From NCBI GenBank assembly GCA_014799405.1, contig JAAVIA010000001.1, positions 60,717 through 113,993 on the forward strand: 53,277 nt of DNA, in the 5' to 3' direction. The notes under the pieces were generated by a model. It was not told the origin of the DNA, ran no database searches, and saw only the letters and a list, made by a program, of their open reading frames with translations. Position 1 is the stretch's first letter; every line of letters begins with the position of its first letter. A program made the position numbers and the translations under genes. Positions 2,323 to 11,417 of this stretch are shown in pieces. The stretch is from Lachnospiraceae bacterium (GTDB lineage: Bacteria; Bacillota; Clostridia; Lachnospirales; Lachnospiraceae).

Positions 2323-3087
2323 ATGAGCGAAGAAAAAAATAAAAAGAAAATCTGCAAAACATCCGTGCGTAAGTATCTGATATTAATTGGTGCCCTGATA
2401 TTGCTACTGATTTATGTAGTGATACCCCGTGTGATGGATTTGAGGCGGAGAATTAATATAGCAAAGGATTTGGAAAGCGTCTACCCGGGTTGTAAAATTG
2501 TTGAAGTAGAATGTGAGAAGAAGCCGACTTACAAGTCGGATTTAAGAAAAAATGGCTATTTGTTTAATAACGCTTTTCCGGAAGAGGGTTTGTATCATTT
2601 TTGGGTTTTGGGTGCAGAAAATCCTCATATGTCAGATGGATATGCAACAAAGGATGGAACGGTCGTTTATGACTCATATGCCGACCTGTACTATAAGGAT
2701 GCGAGCGTTTCGTATTTTGAAGCCATTGTAGATTTTGAACATAATTTTCCCGGACTTGACTATTATATTTCGAAAAAAAATTTGAACCAACTCATGTATG
2801 TACAGACACATGAATGCACAACCTTTGAGGAATATAGAAATGCAACATCTGAAAATGAAAAATTGGGAGGGTATGTGTTTGCCCGTGTGCGCACTTGCGG
2901 ATATCCGGCATTATATGTAGGTATTGTTGATGGAAATGAGGAAACTGTTGAAGAAATAAAGAAAATACTTCAGGATGCGGATTTTGATATGTATGTTGAC
3001 TTTCTAGATATGCGTGCTAACGCTGAAGGCGAATATGATGAATATTCTTTCGAGGATCGTTTGGGAGATTATATCCCCTTTGAGTAA
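2323..3087 (+). CDS. Membrane-anchored protein, copy 1 of a tandem duplicate (possible immunity protein)
   Basis: This 254-aa protein has a short basic N-terminus, one membrane helix at about residues 18-37 (YLILIGALILLLIYVVIPRV) and an acidic C-terminal domain that should lie outside the cell because of the positive-inside rule. It is paralogous to the next gene along its whole length: the first 50 residues are almost identical, and both share YKSDL, DGT, VDFEHNFP, VQTHECTTFE and KKILQDADFDMYV. The gene starts 23 bases after the LXG-like gene with an RBS (GGGGAGA), so it is probably in the same operon. One-helix proteins with an external domain right after an LXG effector are often immunity proteins (for example the TipC group). 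That role is inferred from position, not from a recognised domain. Confidence 0.65.
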   Translation: MSEEKNKKKICKTSVRKYLILIGALILLLIYVVIPRVMDLRRRINIAKDLESVYPGCKIVEVECEKKPTYKSDLRKNGYLFNNAFPEEGLYHFWVLGAENPHMSDGYATKDGTVVYDSYADLYYKDASVSYFEAIVDFEHNFPGLDYYISKKNLNQLMYVQTHECTTFEEYRNATSENEKLGGYVFARVRTCGYPALYVGIVDGNEETVEEIKKILQDADFDMYVDFLDMRANAEGEYDEYSFEDRLGDYIPFE

Positions 3088-3149
3088 GTAAGGGGTAGAA
3101 ATTATGATTTAGGAAACGGTGATTAACATTATTGGGGGAAATTGAAAAA

Positions 3150-4007
3150 ATGAGTGAAGAAAAGAATAAAAAGAAAATCTGCAAAACATCCGTGCGTAAG
3201 TATCTGATATTAATTGGAGCCCTGATATTGGTTCTGATTTATGTAGTGATACCGCGAGTAATGGATTTGAGACGGAGAATTAATATAGCAAAGGATTTGG
3301 AAAGTGTCTACACGGGTATTGACATTGTCGAAGTAACATGTGATAAGAAGCCTACTTACAAGTCGGATTTGGAAGAACGTGGTGAGTTCTTTGGCGATGC
3401 TTTTCCTGAAGAGGGTTTATATTATTTTTATGTTTATGGTTCAGAAGATGATTATCCTTGGATGCAGGGATATGGAACAATGGATACAAAAACTTTTCTT
3501 TTTGCACAGGGATATGCAGCAAAAGATGGAACGGTTATTTATGACACATATGCCGGTCTGTACTATGCTGACGAGAGTGCTTCGTATTTTGAATCCGTGG
3601 TTGATTTTGAACATAATTTTCCTGAGCTTGATTATTATATCAAGCAAGGAAATAGTAATATATCCAGATTTGTACAGACACATGAATGCACAACCTTTGA
3701 GGGGTATCGAAATGCAAAAGTGGGAAGGAATATGATAACTACTGTTTTCACTTATGGATATCCGGAATTACGGGTAGGTATAGATGGTGAAAACAAGGAG
3801 AGGGTTGAGGCGATGAAGGCAATAAAGAAAATACTTCAAGATGCGGATTTTGATATGTATGTATCTTTTTACGACTTGAGGTCGAATGCTTCAGGTAAAT
3901 ATGATTTTTTTTCTTTGCAGTATAAAGAGATAGTATATGAACCCTTTGAGGATGGATTTGGGGGAGATATATTGGAAGATAGATTGGAGGAAAAATTAAA
4001 TGAGTGA
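3150..4007 (+). CDS. Membrane-anchored protein, copy 2 of a tandem duplicate (possible immunity protein)
   Basis: This 285-aa paralogue of the preceding gene has the same N-terminal anchor (MSEEKNKKKICKTSVRKYL) and the same order of conserved segments, but a longer loop in the middle (about residues 80-105) and an extended acidic tail. The ATG at 3150 is chosen because it aligns with the start of copy 1 and follows TTGGGGGAAATTG, which duplicates the leader of copy 1. The nucleotide identity is highest in the first 150 bases and falls afterwards, so the external domains have diverged faster than the anchor, as expected if they bind different partners. It overlaps the next gene by 8 bases. Confidence 0.65.
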   Translation: MSEEKNKKKICKTSVRKYLILIGALILVLIYVVIPRVMDLRRRINIAKDLESVYTGIDIVEVTCDKKPTYKSDLEERGEFFGDAFPEEGLYYFYVYGSEDDYPWMQGYGTMDTKTFLFAQGYAAKDGTVIYDTYAGLYYADESASYFESVVDFEHNFPELDYYIKQGNSNISRFVQTHECTTFEGYRNAKVGRNMITTVFTYGYPELRVGIDGENKERVEAMKAIKKILQDADFDMYVSFYDLRSNASGKYDFFSLQYKEIVYEPFEDGFGGDILEDRLEEKLNE

Positions 4008-4290
4008 TGAAATTTCTTTAGATGCAGGTCTTATCGAACAACATTATGAAAGTCTTGTTTCGGGAGTGGAGCAATGCTTGGACCCTATATCGGTTGTGTA
4101 TGATGATGAAACGAATATATCGGTCAGGGATAATTCAAAAAGTGCATATGAAAGAGCAGTAAATATGGAAAAGCTTATTGAGCAATGCATTGATACCGAT
4201 GCAGAGCATTTGAAAAAGCTTGGAGAGACCTTTTTTACTATGGACGATAATTTATCTGCAGATATAAATAATTTATTGTCTTTTAATTAG
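4000..4290 (+). CDS. Small helical protein, TIGR04197/DUF3130-like type VII secretion partner
   Basis: The 96-aa acidic protein has no signal peptide and no Cys pair. Its pattern of a TNISVRDNSKSAY segment, a long helix with LIEQCIDTD, and a C-terminal FFTMDDNLSADI resembles the small WXG100-like partners (TIGR04197, DUF3130, also called Lap1) encoded beside LXG effectors, which bind the LXG domain and target it for export. The start overlaps the end of copy 2 of the membrane-anchored protein, and an RBS (TTGGAGGAAAA) lies 5-12 bases upstream. Assignment rests on motif recognition by eye. In characterised LXG operons such genes lie upstream of the effector, whereas here the gene is downstream. 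Confidence 0.55.
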   Translation: MSDEISLDAGLIEQHYESLVSGVEQCLDPISVVYDDETNISVRDNSKSAYERAVNMEKLIEQCIDTDAEHLKKLGETFFTMDDNLSADINNLLSFN

Positions 4291-4298
4291 GGGGAAAA

Positions 4299-4664
4299 AT
4301 GGAAAAGAAGAATGAATTGGAACAGAGGCTTTACGATGCAAAAAAGGAACGAGACAGAAATTATGATTTAAGAAATGAATTATCAAGAAAAGCCAATATC
4401 CTTGGTGAGGATTTGGAAGAAAGAATCAGACGAATTGATCAGTATCTTTCTTCCAAAAGTATGCCTGAAAAAGACAAACTTGTGTATGCTGAAAAAAGGC
4501 TGACAGCACGAAACAGGTGTATGGATTTTGAAGACCTGATGGATGATTTAAAAAAACGCATTAATAAGCAATGTGAAGAATCCGATTATAAAGTACACAA
4601 GCTTGAGTATATGGTCAGGGAAATGAGTGAAAACGATGAAGAAATGGATGAAACAAGCATATAA
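4299..4664 (+). CDS. Coiled-coil protein, possible second LXG partner (DUF3958/YwqH-like)
   Basis: The 121-aa protein is highly charged and almost entirely heptad-like helix (LEQRLYDAKKERDRNYDLR onwards). Size and composition resemble the second small helical partner found next to LXG effectors (DUF3958/Lap2 or the YwqH type), but no diagnostic motif settles the family. It starts 8 bases after the previous stop with RBS TAGGGGGAAAA and is the last gene of the plus-strand island. The next gene converges on it with 35 bases between the two stops. Confidence 0.5.
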   Translation: MEKKNELEQRLYDAKKERDRNYDLRNELSRKANILGEDLEERIRRIDQYLSSKSMPEKDKLVYAEKRLTARNRCMDFEDLMDDLKKRINKQCEESDYKVHKLEYMVREMSENDEEMDETSI

Positions 4665-4699: not shown

Positions 4700-5416
4700 T
4701 TATTCCTCTGCGTCCGTGTCTGTAGCAATACCTCCGTCAACAATCGTTGCGGTAGAAATCATTGCCGCATCAATTGCCATGAAATCATGTTCGCCTATGT
4801 AAAAGGTGTTGTCCTCCGTAATAATTGTAACGGTAATCGTCACAGGCTCTCCATAGGTCATGTTCATACAGCCGTCATTTAAGATGTCAAGCATACCGGA
4901 AGAAAATTCGGTTTCGTATTCATTCATTGTATAATTGTTATATATTCCGTTTGCAACCTCGTGATTAAAATGATCTACATATGCAACCACATCGTAGGAG
5001 GTTTGTGCAAAGATATTCATGGGATATACCGTAACGTCGACAAAATACTGCGTTCCTGACTTGTACGCCTTTGAAACCTTATAGTTTGCCTTACTGTAAA
5101 TGTTTTTTGCAAGCTCCACATATTTCGGATACATATCAGGGGCTTCTGATATTTCTATGCTGTAGTAGGAAAGAATGCTGTCGGCAAGATATTCTGCATT
5201 CGCCTCATAAAGAGCTTCTGCATCCGCCTTGTTTGCGCCTGTGGCTTTTATATAATCCTCTGTAGCTCCAAGATAGTTGATGGCAATAAGGCTCTTAACA
5301 TAATTTTGGTAACGCTTTTCTTGCCTGTTTTCACATCCTGTCAGGGATAAAATTAAAATCAGAGAAAGGAAAAGCGACATGTATTTTTTAAAATGATTTC
5401 TAAAAGCTGATTTCAT
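4700..5416 (-). CDS. Lipoprotein of unknown function (238 aa)
   Basis: The protein starts MKSAFRNHFKKY, has a hydrophobic core (about residues 13-24) and a lipobox LTGC with the lipidated cysteine at residue 28, so it should be anchored to the outer face of the membrane. The mature part has no domain that I recognise; it is rich in Tyr, Asp and Ala, and a region with alternating hydrophobic residues (TQYFVDVTVYPMNIF, VTITVTIITEDNTFYIG) suggests a small beta-rich fold, as in DUF5105-like lipoproteins. The ATG at 5416 is chosen because GGAGG lies 10 bases upstream and the signal peptide begins there. The frame stays open upstream to 5620, but that part encodes an AT-rich, signal-free extension. 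Transcription is divergent from the DivIVA-domain gene. Confidence 0.75.
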   Translation of the reverse strand: MKSAFRNHFKKYMSLFLSLILILSLTGCENRQEKRYQNYVKSLIAINYLGATEDYIKATGANKADAEALYEANAEYLADSILSYYSIEISEAPDMYPKYVELAKNIYSKANYKVSKAYKSGTQYFVDVTVYPMNIFAQTSYDVVAYVDHFNHEVANGIYNNYTMNEYETEFSSGMLDILNDGCMNMTYGEPVTITVTIITEDNTFYIGEHDFMAIDAAMISTATIVDGGIATDTDAEE

Positions 5417-5576
5417 AAATGAAAAACCTCCGGTTGTAATAAGAATATTTATTATGCAGTTATTATCATATAAAGAAATATAACACAAATAAGTAATAAA
5501 TGCGATATAAAATATACCATATTTTATGAAAAAATAATTTAGAAGAAAGTTACAGTCAAATAAAGAAAAAAATAAG

Positions 5577-5604
5577 TGCATACTGTCGTTATATGTGGTA
5601 TAAT
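5577..5604 (+). promoter_or_regulatory. Possible sigma-A promoter of the DivIVA-domain gene
   Basis: TATAAT at 5599-5604 is preceded by a weak TGCATA at 5577-5582 with 16 bases between. A second TATAAT is at 5631-5636. The 267-bp divergent region between the lipoprotein and the DivIVA-domain gene is very AT-rich, and I see nothing else in it. Confidence 0.35.
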
Positions 5605-5683
5605 ATGCAAAAAAGTACATTATAATTTGCTATAATATAATTATCATGATTTATTGTGAAAAGTATTATGAAAGGGGATAATT

Positions 5684-6529
5684 ATGGAACCACAGTTTAA
5701 AACAGCCTCATTTGGCGGATATGATAAAAAGGCAGTTGACGTATATATAGAGGACATAAGGTCAAGACATGAAAAAGAGGTATCAGAGCTCAAGGCAAAT
5801 ATTTTAAAGCTCAGCGAGACGGTCAAAAACCTAAATACCATGAGGGAGGTAAACCTTAACGAATCATCAAGTACCATAGATAACCTCAAGAAGGTAAATG
5901 ATGAGCTGCAAATGGAAATTACCCAATTCAAAAATCAGCTGGAAACCTACAGAACGAGAGAGGATGAATCTGCAAGCAGATATGAGTCCATTTCAAGAAC
6001 ACTTCTTGAGGCAAGGGAAAGTGCAGACATTCTTATCAATGATACAAATGCAAAATGTGAGCGACAGCTTGCAGATACACAGGCAGAGTGTGAGAGAATG
6101 AAGCAGGAGACAGAAGAATACTGTACGAGTCTTCATAATGAAACGGAAAATGAGTGTCAGCGGCTTGCAACGGAGACCACTGCAAATTGCGAGAGAATGC
6201 GTGTGGAAACTACAAGTGCATGTCAGGAGATGAAAGACACCACATATGCAAACTGTGAGGACCTTAGAAGAAGAACAACGGAGGAAACAGATTCATTACG
6301 CACACAGACACAGGAATACTGTGATAATTTGAGAAAACAGACCGAGGATGAGTGCGAGGAAATTCGCAGTCAGGCAAGGCTTGACGCATACAATGCCCGT
6401 ATGGCGGTTAAGAGAGAGTGTGAGAATTTAGGAAGCTTCATGACAGAGCTTATTTCATCTGTGGATAATGTCGTAAAGGCATGTGATCAGACCAAGACGA
6501 TTGCGGCACAGCAGTTTCCGGATCTGTAA
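5684..6529 (+). CDS. DivIVA-domain protein with cysteine-studded 11-residue coiled-coil repeats
   Basis: Residues 1-50 match the DivIVA lipid-binding domain: FGGYDKKAVDVYI at 10-22, where DivIVA/GpsB proteins have GY-x-x-x-x-VD-x-Y/F, followed by a coiled coil. DivIVA proteins sit at curved membrane and recruit division, cell-wall or polar factors. From about residue 114 the coiled coil is built of 11-residue repeats. Cysteines lie at 125, 136, 147, 158, 169, 180, 191, 213, 224 and 246, all in one register; Thr202 and Ala235 occupy the two skipped places. The C-terminal 30 residues leave the repeat. The gene stands alone between its upstream promoter region and a large hairpin terminator. Total length, 281 aa, is normal for the family, but the cysteine pattern is not. 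The role in division or polar organisation is inferred from the domain only. Confidence 0.8.
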   Translation: MEPQFKTASFGGYDKKAVDVYIEDIRSRHEKEVSELKANILKLSETVKNLNTMREVNLNESSSTIDNLKKVNDELQMEITQFKNQLETYRTREDESASRYESISRTLLEARESADILINDTNAKCERQLADTQAECERMKQETEEYCTSLHNETENECQRLATETTANCERMRVETTSACQEMKDTTYANCEDLRRRTTEETDSLRTQTQEYCDNLRKQTEDECEEIRSQARLDAYNARMAVKRECENLGSFMTELISSVDNVVKACDQTKTIAAQQFPDL

Positions 6530-6534
6530 TACAT

Positions 6535-6643
6535 GGTTGTCGATTCAGAAGGTTTAATATGCACATAATGAAACTGTTTTACATGTTTTAAGCAGTTTGT
6601 TATTTGCATATTGCGCATTTTGAACCGACAGCCTTCTTTTTTT
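6535..6643 (+). terminator. Long imperfect hairpin ending in a T run
   Basis: The arms 6535-6550 and 6618-6633 pair over 16 bp with three mismatches or G-T pairs. Inner arms 6556-6563 with 6605-6612 (AATATGCA/TGCATATT) and 6571-6576 with 6593-6598 (AAACTG/CAGTTT) pair perfectly. The outer arm is followed by TTCTTTTTTT. It sits just after the DivIVA-domain gene and can end its transcript, although about 100 nt is long for a simple terminator. Confidence 0.7.
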
Positions 6644-6671
6644 CAATGATGGTGTATAAGGGGGTGTTTTT

Positions 6672-8447
6672 ATGGTATTGGAGAATATTTATCTGAAAAA
6701 AGCCTTAGCTAAGGTTGGTTGCGTTGTAATTGTAAAAACATGTGGGAAGCAGGACAGAAAAAGTAAATTGGAATATATTTCTCCAAATGCATCCACAATA
6801 GGTATGAATGTTGAGCTTATCAATAAGGGATTGAAGCTTACTGAGGACTATATCCATCCTGAGGACAGAGAAAAGGTTATAACGACGGTAATGGAGGCGG
6901 CAAAGGCAAAGGTGGAAAGCTATGTCCATGAGCACAGGATGGTTGGAGACGATGGCAGCCTTTTTAATGTGTCAAATGACATATGTATTACTGAGGAAAC
7001 GGATGAGTCATTTAAGGTTGAAATGTACATTATGCCCGTCCAAAATAAAAACGAAGCCGGGGATGATGTGCCGGAGGCAAAATCACATGACTTTGAAAAA
7101 AAGGATTACAGCATTATGGGTGAAAATAAAATCCTTGAATCCTCCATTAATATGTTTGCTAAGCTTACACAGCTTTATTCCACATTTGTAAATTTGGAGG
7201 GGAAGGTTGTAGTTCCTCCTGTAGGACCGGATACAAATTTAGGGGATTTTTATGATTTATTTGAAAAGCCCGCATATAAGGAATACTATAAATCGATTGA
7301 ACACAATGCACTGTCCAGTGAGAGCCCGGTTATTATGGACAGGGAGGAAGGCGGATTGGGCAAACTGTGCGCCGCTCCAATTTATGTTAATGGAGAAGCG
7401 GTAGGGCTTTGGATTTTGGGTTCATACACAAAGGAAGAAACGGAAAAATTAAAAAGTGTGTATAAACTGCAATGGTCTTTGGCGGGCATGATAACGGATT
7501 ATATCGAAAAGGATATGTGCAGCACGGTGGAATCTGCAAAGGCGAGAGGAGCAGGAGTAAGGCTTAGAGAGGAACTTGCAAGGCAGAATATAATTAATGA
7601 AGCACTTTCTAAGGTCAACAGCAATCTTATGGATTCAGTGGATCAGGTTATATCAGAGACTATGCGTGACGTCGGAGTAAATATGGACGTTGAGAAGGTA
7701 ATGCTTTACTTTGCCCCAAAAGGGAATCCGGACAAGTATATGCTTAATAATTATTGGGATGCAGGCGGAGCTGTGCCGGGAAATGAGCTTAAGGTCGGTG
7801 TTTCAAGAGGAAGCTATATTGTGCAGAATGAATTTAGAAATGGAAAAGAGAATTTTGTTATAGATAGTACCAACATGACAGCAGAATACAAGTTGGGGCT
7901 CATGCATTACGGAATGAGGGCGATTATTGTTCAACCCATATTTATGAATAATGAAATACGGGGTATACTTTTATTTGCGGAATGCAAATCGGAACGTGTA
8001 TGGACGAAGGAGGAGCTTAGATTTTCAAAGAGTATTACACTTGTAATTCAGAATATGCTGGATATTGCATATGGTGATGACAATGTAAGAAATGTAAATA
8101 AACAGCTTATAGAGATATATAATACCTTCAAAGTGGGAATATTTGTAAGAGATACACATACAGGAGAGGTGCTTTTCTCAAATAAGGTAATGAACGAAAT
8201 GTTGGGATATGACTTCAAGGGAAAGGACAGCAGGGGACTGATTATGGATTTGCATGACAGGTTTGACAGCATTTCTGGAATGAGAAAACCATTTCTTACA
8301 AAAAATAAGGAAACCAGTTGGCGGTGTTATATTCAAAAGCTTGACGCAATCATGGATATAAATGAGATAAAGATGGAGTGGCTCAATGGTCGGTCAGCAT
8401 CCTTTGTTGTGCTTCGAAAGGCAAAAGACGGACAAATTGACAACTAG
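6672..8447 (+). CDS. PAS-(PocR-like)-GAF-PAS sensor protein without an output domain
   Basis: The 591-aa soluble protein has a PAS-like fold at about residues 20-125 (EDYIHPEDREKV, HRMVGDDGSLF), a second sensory block at about 155-285 that resembles the PocR ligand-binding type (FAKLTQLYSTFVNLEGKVV, CAAPIYVNGEAVGLWILG), a GAF domain at about 315-475 (AIIVQPIFMNNEIRGILLF) and a C-terminal PAS domain at about 485-585 (FKVGIFVRDTHTGEVLFSNK). No histidine kinase, GGDEF, EAL, HTH or methyl-accepting domain and no membrane helix is seen. It may act by protein contact or have lost its effector domain. It precedes mbl by 55 bases, a gap that holds a sigma-28-like promoter. Ligand unknown. Confidence 0.7.
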   Translation: MVLENIYLKKALAKVGCVVIVKTCGKQDRKSKLEYISPNASTIGMNVELINKGLKLTEDYIHPEDREKVITTVMEAAKAKVESYVHEHRMVGDDGSLFNVSNDICITEETDESFKVEMYIMPVQNKNEAGDDVPEAKSHDFEKKDYSIMGENKILESSINMFAKLTQLYSTFVNLEGKVVVPPVGPDTNLGDFYDLFEKPAYKEYYKSIEHNALSSESPVIMDREEGGLGKLCAAPIYVNGEAVGLWILGSYTKEETEKLKSVYKLQWSLAGMITDYIEKDMCSTVESAKARGAGVRLREELARQNIINEALSKVNSNLMDSVDQVISETMRDVGVNMDVEKVMLYFAPKGNPDKYMLNNYWDAGGAVPGNELKVGVSRGSYIVQNEFRNGKENFVIDSTNMTAEYKLGLMHYGMRAIIVQPIFMNNEIRGILLFAECKSERVWTKEELRFSKSITLVIQNMLDIAYGDDNVRNVNKQLIEIYNTFKVGIFVRDTHTGEVLFSNKVMNEMLGYDFKGKDSRGLIMDLHDRFDSISGMRKPFLTKNKETSWRCYIQKLDAIMDINEIKMEWLNGRSASFVVLRKAKDGQIDN

Positions 8448-8502: not shown

Positions 8503-9492
8503 ATGGCAGGTTCGGATATAGGCATAGATTTGGGAACAGCCAGTATATTAGTTTATGTTAAAGGCAAGGGAGTAGTTTTAAAGGAACCTTCCGTTGTAGC
8601 ATACGATAGAGATACAAGTACAATAAAAGCGATTGGGGAGGAGGCAAGGCTGATGCTTGGCAGGACGCCGGGCAACATCGTTGCAATAAGACCCCTGAGG
8701 CAGGGAGTTATCTCCGATTATAAAATAACGGAAAAAATGCTTAAATATTTCATAGAAAAAGCAGTTGGAAAAAGCTTTTTCGGCAGAAGACCAAGAATAA
8801 GCGTATGTGTTCCTTCCGGTGTTACCGAGGTAGAGAAAAAGGCGGTTGAGGACGCTACCTATCAGGCAGGAGCAAGAGATGTTTATATTATTGAGGAACC
8901 GGTGGCTGCCGCTATCGGTGCAGGCATTGACATTTCAAGACCGTGTGGTAACATGATAGTTGATATAGGCGGTGGAACTACTGACATTGCAGTTATATCC
9001 TTAGACGGAATCGTAGTTAATTCTTCCCTAAAGGTGGCAGGAGATGATTTTGACGACGCCATCGTAAGATTTATGAGAAAGAGACATAACCTTCTCATAG
9101 GAGAAAGAACTGCTGAGGAGATAAAGATAAACATAGGAACCTGTTATAAAAGACCGGAAAACATTACAATGGATATACGTGGACGTAACCTTGTAACCGG
9201 ACTTCCGAAAACTGTTACGGTATCCTCGGATGAGACCGAGGAGGCTTTAAGAGAGGTCACCGCACAGATTGTTGATGCAGTTCATTCTGTTTTGGAGCGC
9301 ACACCGCCGGAGCTTTCGGCGGATATTGCCGACAGGGGAATTGTTCTTACAGGAGGCGGAGCGCTTCTTCACGGCTTAGAGGACCTTATTGAGGAAAATA
9401 CCGGAATTACAACCATGACAGCGGAGCAGCCACTTACGGCAGTCGCAGTAGGTACAGGAAAATATATTGAATTTTTAAGCGAAAAGAGTTAG
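8503..9492 (+). CDS. mbl: MreB/Mbl-family bacterial actin
   Basis: This 329-aa actin homologue polymerises along the inner membrane and guides lateral wall synthesis. Phosphate-1 motif DIGIDLGTASILVY is at residues 5-18, phosphate-2 VDIGGGTTDIAVI at about 152-164, and the adenosine motif TGGGALLHGL at about 284-293. The length equals that of Mbl/MreBH (333-335 aa). The gene is followed at 11 bases by flgF and then flgG; mbl-flhO-flhP is the order in Bacillus, which favours mbl over mreB (mreB is normally followed by mreC). RBS AAAGGAG lies 7 bases before the ATG. Co-transcription with rod genes from a sigma-28-like promoter is suggested by spacing. Confidence 0.92.
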   Translation: MAGSDIGIDLGTASILVYVKGKGVVLKEPSVVAYDRDTSTIKAIGEEARLMLGRTPGNIVAIRPLRQGVISDYKITEKMLKYFIEKAVGKSFFGRRPRISVCVPSGVTEVEKKAVEDATYQAGARDVYIIEEPVAAAIGAGIDISRPCGNMIVDIGGGTTDIAVISLDGIVVNSSLKVAGDDFDDAIVRFMRKRHNLLIGERTAEEIKINIGTCYKRPENITMDIRGRNLVTGLPKTVTVSSDETEEALREVTAQIVDAVHSVLERTPPELSADIADRGIVLTGGGALLHGLEDLIEENTGITTMTAEQPLTAVAVGTGKYIEFLSEKS

Positions 9493-11221: not shown

Positions 11222-11253
11222 GCAGCACGACACCGAGCCGGCAGGCGAGGTGA

Positions 11254-11417
11254 CATTGCTTAAAGCAATGTAAGCTTTGGTGGCATTGCTTAAAGCAATG
11301 TAAAGCTTTGGTGGCATTGCTTAAAGCAATGTAAGCTCTGGTGGCATTGCTTAAAGCAATGTAAAGCTTTGGTGGCATTGCTTAAAGCAATGTAAGCTCT
11401 GGTGGCATTGCTTTAAC
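11254..11417 (+). repeat. Tandem array of a 30/31-bp palindromic unit (about 5.4 copies)
   Basis: The palindrome CATTGCTTAAAGCAATG occurs in full five times, starting at 11254, 11284, 11315, 11345 and 11376, and a sixth, broken copy starts at 11406. The spacing alternates 30, 31, 30, 31, 30 because the linker is TAAGCTYTGGTGG or TAAAGCTTTGGTGG. Together with the preceding hairpin and the following palindrome it fills most of the 337-bp gap between flgG and the flgJ-like gene. No gene is seen there: the alternating spacing breaks every frame. Confidence 0.9.

Follow-up and report, generated by a model that had tools for sequence, protein, structure and literature searches.

A cysteine stripe in hendecad register in DivIVA-like proteins of Lachnospiraceae

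The stripe and its conservation

Cysteines spaced every 11 residues in a DivIVA-like protein of a Lachnospiraceae bacterium form a stripe that, judged from sequence comparison, is real, selected and more widespread than this one protein. The gene lies in the window, by which we mean the whole stretch of 53,277 nucleotides analysed here, at 5684..6529 on the plus strand, with an ATG start and a product of 281 amino acids. Cysteines 125, 136, 147, 158, 169, 180, 191, 213, 224 and 246 fall in a single class modulo 11, placing 10 of the 11 cysteines of the protein on one position of the repeat. The stripe spans 12 hendecad slots (residues 125-246, 6056..6421, plus strand, pattern CCCCCCCTCCAC), with Thr at slot 202 and Ala at slot 235. 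The 11th cysteine, Cys267, is off register by one residue and belongs to a conserved C-terminal segment (residues 247-281, 6422..6526, plus strand); a late cysteine matching it is also present in orthologues whose stripe is made of serine. Ten cysteines in one register were seen in none of 200,000 random placements of 11 cysteines across residues 110-281 and in none of 100,000 shuffles of residues 120-257, and the register is therefore not due to chance. An earlier note had described ten cysteines on one hendecad position, skipped by one Thr and one Ala, and the residue numbering shows this description to be exact; the 11-residue helical repeat that it proposed is supported by the residue pattern at hendecad positions a, d and h. 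Tandem Repeats Finder reported no array at the stripe of the window gene, and because DNA identity among the first ten hendecads averages only 45% (range 27-58%), the stripe is not a fresh tandem repeat.

With the window protein as query there was one match in its own genome, and an orthologue was present in 34 of the 37 genomes of the genus, its own genome counted. Our first set comprised 34 distinct proteins, namely 33 of the 34 genus genes together with L039, the gene of G203 from another genus (G012 was left out, G005 is represented by the identical L037, and G021 by L040, matched by contig coordinates). Counting slots from the first to the last stripe cysteine, 334 of 409 are Cys, the rest being Ala (33), Thr (32), Val (7), Leu (2) and Ser (1); nearly all of the alanines sit at one late slot preceding the last cysteine. 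There are 12 slots in 17 proteins, 11 in 10, 13 in five and 15 in two, so that stripe length varies by whole hendecads. Across 375 hendecads of the 34 proteins, small or hydrophobic residues stand at a, d and h, the residue pattern of a hendecad coiled coil, with Cys at position 0 (0.80), Leu/Met at position 3 (0.79) and Thr/Ala/Val at position 7 (0.98). A further 23 Cys-type rows gave 220 Cys in 266 slots (one row, L105, duplicates L039), and with the duplicate dropped the Cys type totals 56 distinct proteins with Cys at 544 of 663 slots. Four pairs that align without gaps keep 9 or 10 of 10 cysteines, their other repeat positions being 0.45-0.52 identical and their four-fold sites 0.31-0.50, near saturation. 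Maintenance of the stripe by selection, not drift, is thus a reading that the Cys clade supports. The earlier note had held that free replacement of the cysteines by Ala, Ser or Thr among homologues would speak against its interpretation; within the Cys clade such swaps are not free, as the non-Cys slots are mostly at two fixed places, while one related genus does carry a serine stripe.

Orthologues, the serine stripe and other protein families

A profile built from the 34 proteins matched 16 of 299 family genomes at 1e-5. Two of these belong to the window's own genus and four, from four further genera, hold Cys-stripe orthologues (L105-L108). The remainder are the Ser-stripe protein L109, the unstriped orthologue L111, L116, which is DivIVA-like with the stripe absent, L117, which looks unrelated, and six genomes whose proteins start with a different N-terminus or head and have Cys every 11 residues. 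Of the 37 genomes in the genus of L108, 36 carry the gene, and all 20 proteins fetched, L108 included, are of the Cys type. The genus of L109 has the gene in 24 of 26 genomes; 20 distinct proteins were read, one of them L109 itself, and 19 of the 20 are labelled Ser type, with L178 carrying a Cys and a His between its serines. The register in this genus holds Ser at 119 of 134 slots and Cys at six, and not every lineage, therefore, needs thiols to retain the gene. Since nearly all slots are Ser and at least one member of the genus, L161, retains the same neighbour genes, neither disulfides nor metals can be essential in this genus. We regard the Ser genus as the strongest result against an essential thiol chemistry; what speaks most strongly for a role specific to thiols is how seldom Ala and Ser appear in the Cys clade apart from the set slots.

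All 57 Cys rows fall on one side of a single branch (100/97) in a maximum-likelihood tree of 78 rows; the outgroup L111, the most distant syntenic orthologue and one in which the stripe is absent, sits on a very long branch, and the direction of change between Cys and Ser is not readable from this tree. In Ser hendecads, position 3 is Met/Leu, position 4 is Leu/Ile/Val/Met, and position 7 is either Ala (0.72) or Ser (0.23). In Cys hendecads, Leu/Met predominate at position 3 and polar residues at position 4, with Thr at position 7 (0.92 and 0.91 in the two Cys genera compared). On these residue frequencies the hendecad core is seen to shift as one unit between the two types. A protein of G038 first considered as an orthologue was rejected as a different DivIVA-like protein.

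Of 295 order-level genomes, 17 gave a match at 1e-5, 14 of them outside the family and weak, the best of these (6.2e-9, 35.8 bits) containing an internal stop. The 13 of these 14 that were read (L209 was left out) have 0-2 cysteines each. There was no tblastn match at 1e-5 to phage or plasmid relatives in 50,697 phage and 72,556 plasmid records.

Cysteines every 11 residues also occur behind other N-termini, in L110, L112 and L121, L113, L114 (two proteins), L115 and L118, from six genomes. L110, L112, L113, L114 and L118 have in common an N-terminal region, with an 'LSRxELLEML' N-terminus, that defines a second family; this region alone, used as query, detected the second family in 40 of 299 family genomes. 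Of the 35 distinct second-family proteins read, 11 show two or more Cys-x10-Cys steps, although six of the 11 are seeds chosen for their cysteines and the fair figure is five of 29, with L121, one of the five, having already come up with the first profile. The remaining members have Ala-type hendecads (e.g., L140, L149) or no long helix. In 66 Cys hendecads of the 11 proteins, Leu/Met stands at +3 (0.74) and Thr (0.59) or Ala (0.18) at +7, and a hendecad of the form C-x2-L/M-x3-T-x3 is common to the stripe protein, the second family and one further protein. L112, L113 and L114 gave no Pfam hit to DivIVA at 0.01, and the second family is apparently unrelated to the stripe protein. L115 has by eye a DivIVA-type start with no Pfam DivIVA hit, and may stand for a third family or be distantly related to the stripe protein. 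A profile of the Cys hendecad itself matched 14 of 299 family genomes, and among 291 class-level genomes it gave two matches, both in the window's own genus and none beyond it, a result to be read with the bias of this profile to its source sequences, which leaves wider occurrence possible. As a side observation, second-family Cys-hendecad genes adjoin, by eye, a signal peptidase I-like gene in L167 (5320-7735) and L165 (6478-8000), and a large surface-protein-like gene lies near the one in L167.

Gene neighbourhood and the DivIVA-like head

The stripe gene is followed on the plus strand by a gene at 6672..8447, in whose product a domain search found PAS, PocR-like (under the cut-off), GAF and a weak second PAS domain and no output domain, and then by a third gene of the conserved block, at 8503..9492, which encodes an MreB/Mbl family actin-like protein (PF06723, 473 bits). 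Directly behind the stripe gene, at 6535..6633 on the plus strand, RNA folding gives a long hairpin and then a T run, a probable terminator; the hairpin has 99 bases, -42.7 kcal/mol and z -7.3 and is bigger than an ordinary terminator. A simple terminator scan of 5400-6800 returned no sites, its loop limit being 3-8 bases. Because of this strong hairpin and T run, the stripe gene is probably transcribed as a single gene.

Stripe gene, PAS/GAF gene and mreB follow one another in 16 of 16 loci that extend far enough to show the order, comprising L031-L041 (11 of 11) together with L157, L158, L160, L161 and L162, where L157 is the same gene as L039; L159 stops inside the PAS/GAF gene. Six genomes from three genera do not have the stripe gene, and four of these do not have the PAS/GAF gene either. 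The clearest case is G006, from the window's own genus, a single contig at 99% completeness with both genes absent; both are likewise absent from G004, G378 and G379, weaker evidence at 80-91% completeness. In G034 and G410 the PAS/GAF gene reaches a contig end, or comes to within about 250 bases of it, in the direction where the stripe gene would be expected. Neither gene is present in G037 and G038, which belong to other genera. This sharing of presence and absence suggests, from few cases, that the stripe gene and the PAS/GAF gene may be one functional unit.

In the window, in nine of the 11 named loci (L038 ends earlier), in L161 and in L162, mreB is followed by flgF. A flagellar function was nonetheless rejected, as recD2 and comF rather than flgF follow mreB in L157, L158 and L160, and the lasting link is therefore with the PAS/GAF gene and MreB. 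The PAS/GAF protein was also rejected as a redox-active partner, having no cysteine conserved across all 15 aligned sequences. Other features of the neighbourhood are recorded here for completeness. Two small helical proteins are encoded upstream at 4000-4664, the first weakly DUF3130-like (below cut-off), and this pair recurs in two of the 11 named loci (L031 and L033). Two adjacent, similar membrane-anchored proteins at 2323-4007 are apparently a tandem duplication. The gap between flgG and the flgJ-like gene (11249-11413) holds a tandem repeat of 2.7 copies of a 61-base unit with 98% match, in which the palindrome-like GCATTGCTTAAAGCAATG is found.

DivIVA family proteins carry an N-terminal F-x-GYD motif. 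The window protein has a DivIVA-like motif at residues 4-55 (5693..5848, plus strand, ..SFGGYDKKAVDVYI..), scored by Pfam PF05103 at 29.3 bits, a marginal 1.3 bits above the cut-off of 28, and by TIGR03544 (DivI1A domain) at 17.6 bits, under the cut-off of 22. In a six-frame PF05103 search of its own genome the stripe stretch scored 20.2 bits, below the cut-off. Orthologues score higher, with 30.4 bits for L106 and a clearer 44.3 bits for the Ser-stripe L109. F10, G11, G12, Y13, D14 and K15 are invariant across the 34 proteins, and with the marginal Pfam score they bear out the DivIVA-like N-terminus that the earlier note had proposed. Residues 1-125 align in the 34 proteins without gaps, apart from a single added residue in two, and close with ESASRYESISRTLLEARESAD (residues 95-115, 5966..6028, plus strand), a segment that hardly varies and precedes the stripe; no cysteine occurs in residues 1-100 in any of the 78 rows, whether Cys, Ser or unstriped. 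The best NCBIfam E-value of the window protein was to Scy (NF041483, 1.8e-10), yet at 39.1 bits against a cut-off of 1040.

Core geometry, alternative explanations and meaning

The spacing of Cys, Leu/Met and Thr is 3-4-4, matching the a/d/h core spacing given for hendecads in the excerpted text of PMC9858780. The same excerpt describes one core residue as pointing to the axis, where the clash is eased by a small side chain, above all Ala, as in FilP and Scy, and an N-terminal motif common to DivIVA, GpsB, FilP and Scy; cysteine is not mentioned in this excerpt. The stripe protein resembles DivIVA/GpsB (PF05103) in its F-x-GGYDK region and the helical part after it. It differs from the stronger 380-aa and the shorter 219-aa DivIVA proteins of its own genome, which are without a stripe, the genome having five DivIVA matches and stripe status being taken from those among the three matches listed. 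With FilP and Scy of actinobacteria it has in common a DivIVA-like motif, a long hendecad rod and small core residues, whereas their core is Ala-rich, as far as the excerpt of PMC9858780 describes it, and that of the stripe protein is Cys and Thr. The right-handed hendecad stalks of ATP synthase b-type subunits are likened by description, in the excerpted part of PMC6131620, through an 11-residue pattern and paired helices; a title in its reference list concerns the b-subunit stalk, a related hendecad rod, and calls it offset. Unlike the stripe protein, that stalk is the membrane-anchored stalk of an enzyme. The second family is alike in that part of it repeats Cys at 11-residue intervals, followed by Leu/Met at +3 and Thr/Ala at +7, and unlike in having few Cys steps in most members, as well as in the missing DivIVA hits already noted.

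We propose that the stripe protein may be a DivIVA/FilP-like cytoskeletal rod in a cell-shape module with the PAS/GAF protein and MreB, the placing of the rod in this module being itself inferred. The DivIVA-like head would dock or cluster the rod. The C-terminal part would be a hendecad coiled coil with core Cys at a, Leu/Met at d and Thr at h, in which Cys would fill the small, axis-pointing position that is commonly Ala in hendecads. If the chains run parallel and in register, cysteines would lie face to face every ~16.5 Å, or 11 residues, in about ten thiol layers. The rod would be reduced in the anaerobic cytosol, and oxidation of its thiols, for example on contact with oxygen, could lock it by interchain disulfides, which we take to be the likeliest use of the thiols. 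In a toy Crick model of a parallel in-register oligomer, which is not a structure prediction, the Cb-Cb distance of the cysteines in a dimer is 2.7-5.4 Å at phases within 16 degrees of the axis and 6.0-7.4 Å at offsets of 24-33 degrees; modelled in this way, the geometry permits interchain disulfides. The structural part, a morphogenetic rod with inward cysteines, we consider probable by our own estimate. The full statement, in which oxidation also locks the rod through disulfides, is tentative, and we would place it a little short of an even chance.

A rival explanation is that packing alone accounts for the stripe, Cys being the best small, weakly hydrophobic filler of a next to a polar e and a Thr at h, with thiol chemistry irrelevant. 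Hendecad cores are expected to hold small residues (PMC9858780), several second-family members (L140 and L149) use Ala hendecads, and the Ser genus uses another small residue with Leu/Ile/Val/Met at e and Ala at h, the core changing together. However, the usual filler Ala is rare in the Cys clade and nearly confined to its one late slot, 9-10 of 10 cysteines are kept despite near-saturated divergence, and the pairing of Cys with Thr at +7 recurs in the second family. We judge the packing explanation possible, if on balance doubtful.

Designed coiled coils lined with cysteine are known to bind metals. A natural counterpart would have two to four thiolates per layer, from a parallel dimer, trimer or tetramer, binding a soft metal or an iron-sulfur cluster in each hendecad. 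This would suit the regular thiol layers, a host from an anaerobic family and the Cb-Cb distances of 4.7-6.5 Å in toy trimers and tetramers at phases within 16 degrees. Such a ladder nevertheless seems improbable to us, given that the window protein has no Cys-x2-Cys pair, that Ser substitutes for the stripe in one genus and that the neighbours are a sensor-like protein and MreB, without metal genes.

We would give about as little credence to an amphipathic 11-mer helix lying on a membrane as in apolipoproteins, with Cys, Leu and Thr as a weak lipid-facing side. Apolipoprotein (PF01442) did give the best Pfam E-value of the window protein (5.8e-9), and 13 of the 14 matches of the profile to PDB sequences (<=0.01) were apolipoproteins A-I or A-IV, as were 13 of 13 in a further search, the 14th being the uncharacterised chain 6h9l. 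The likeness to the 11-mer helices of apolipoproteins A1, A4 and E lies in their periodicity; the score of 36.3 bits is far under the family cut-off of 90, and the match probably comes from 11-residue periodicity and composition. A DivIVA-like head on a hendecad rod also has precedent in FilP and Scy (PMC9858780, as excerpted). Finally, copying of hendecads within the gene, instead of selection on Cys, could keep the stripe uniform and would fit both the gain or loss of whole hendecads between species and stripes that are mostly Cys or mostly Ser by lineage, but we find it very hard to credit when the hendecads of the window gene, the sole gene compared, have diverged so far in DNA and the four pairs retain Cys slot by slot across species.

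The reading that we prefer, a cell-shape rod with inward cysteines that oxidation may lock, has a broader and less likely extension. The Cys/Thr hendecad (C-x2-L/M-x3-T-x3) might be a distinct natural coiled-coil core of Lachnospiraceae that has arisen in at least two and perhaps three families and forms, within cytoskeletal rods, a one-dimensional ladder of evenly spaced thiols, switching cell shape collectively in response to redox state or metal; we offer this as speculation, unlikely as it stands. In a full-text literature search, subscription papers and preprints being outside its scope, no paper dealt with bacterial Cys stripes as judged by its title or the opening of its abstract. Unless the thiol ladder is shown to act, the stripe protein is a variant of hendecad, DivIVA-like rods and not a new type of system. 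Taken at the level of protein sequence, the stripe is one pointing to an undescribed type of thiol-lined helical rod. A stripe of some 8-13 cysteines that is selected, recurs in a second family and is Ser in a related genus amounts to a natural experiment on core thiols in filaments. If only packing is at work, it would add a new core type to the hendecad rules; if the redox lock is true, it would tie oxygen exposure directly to the cell-shape machinery of these anaerobes.
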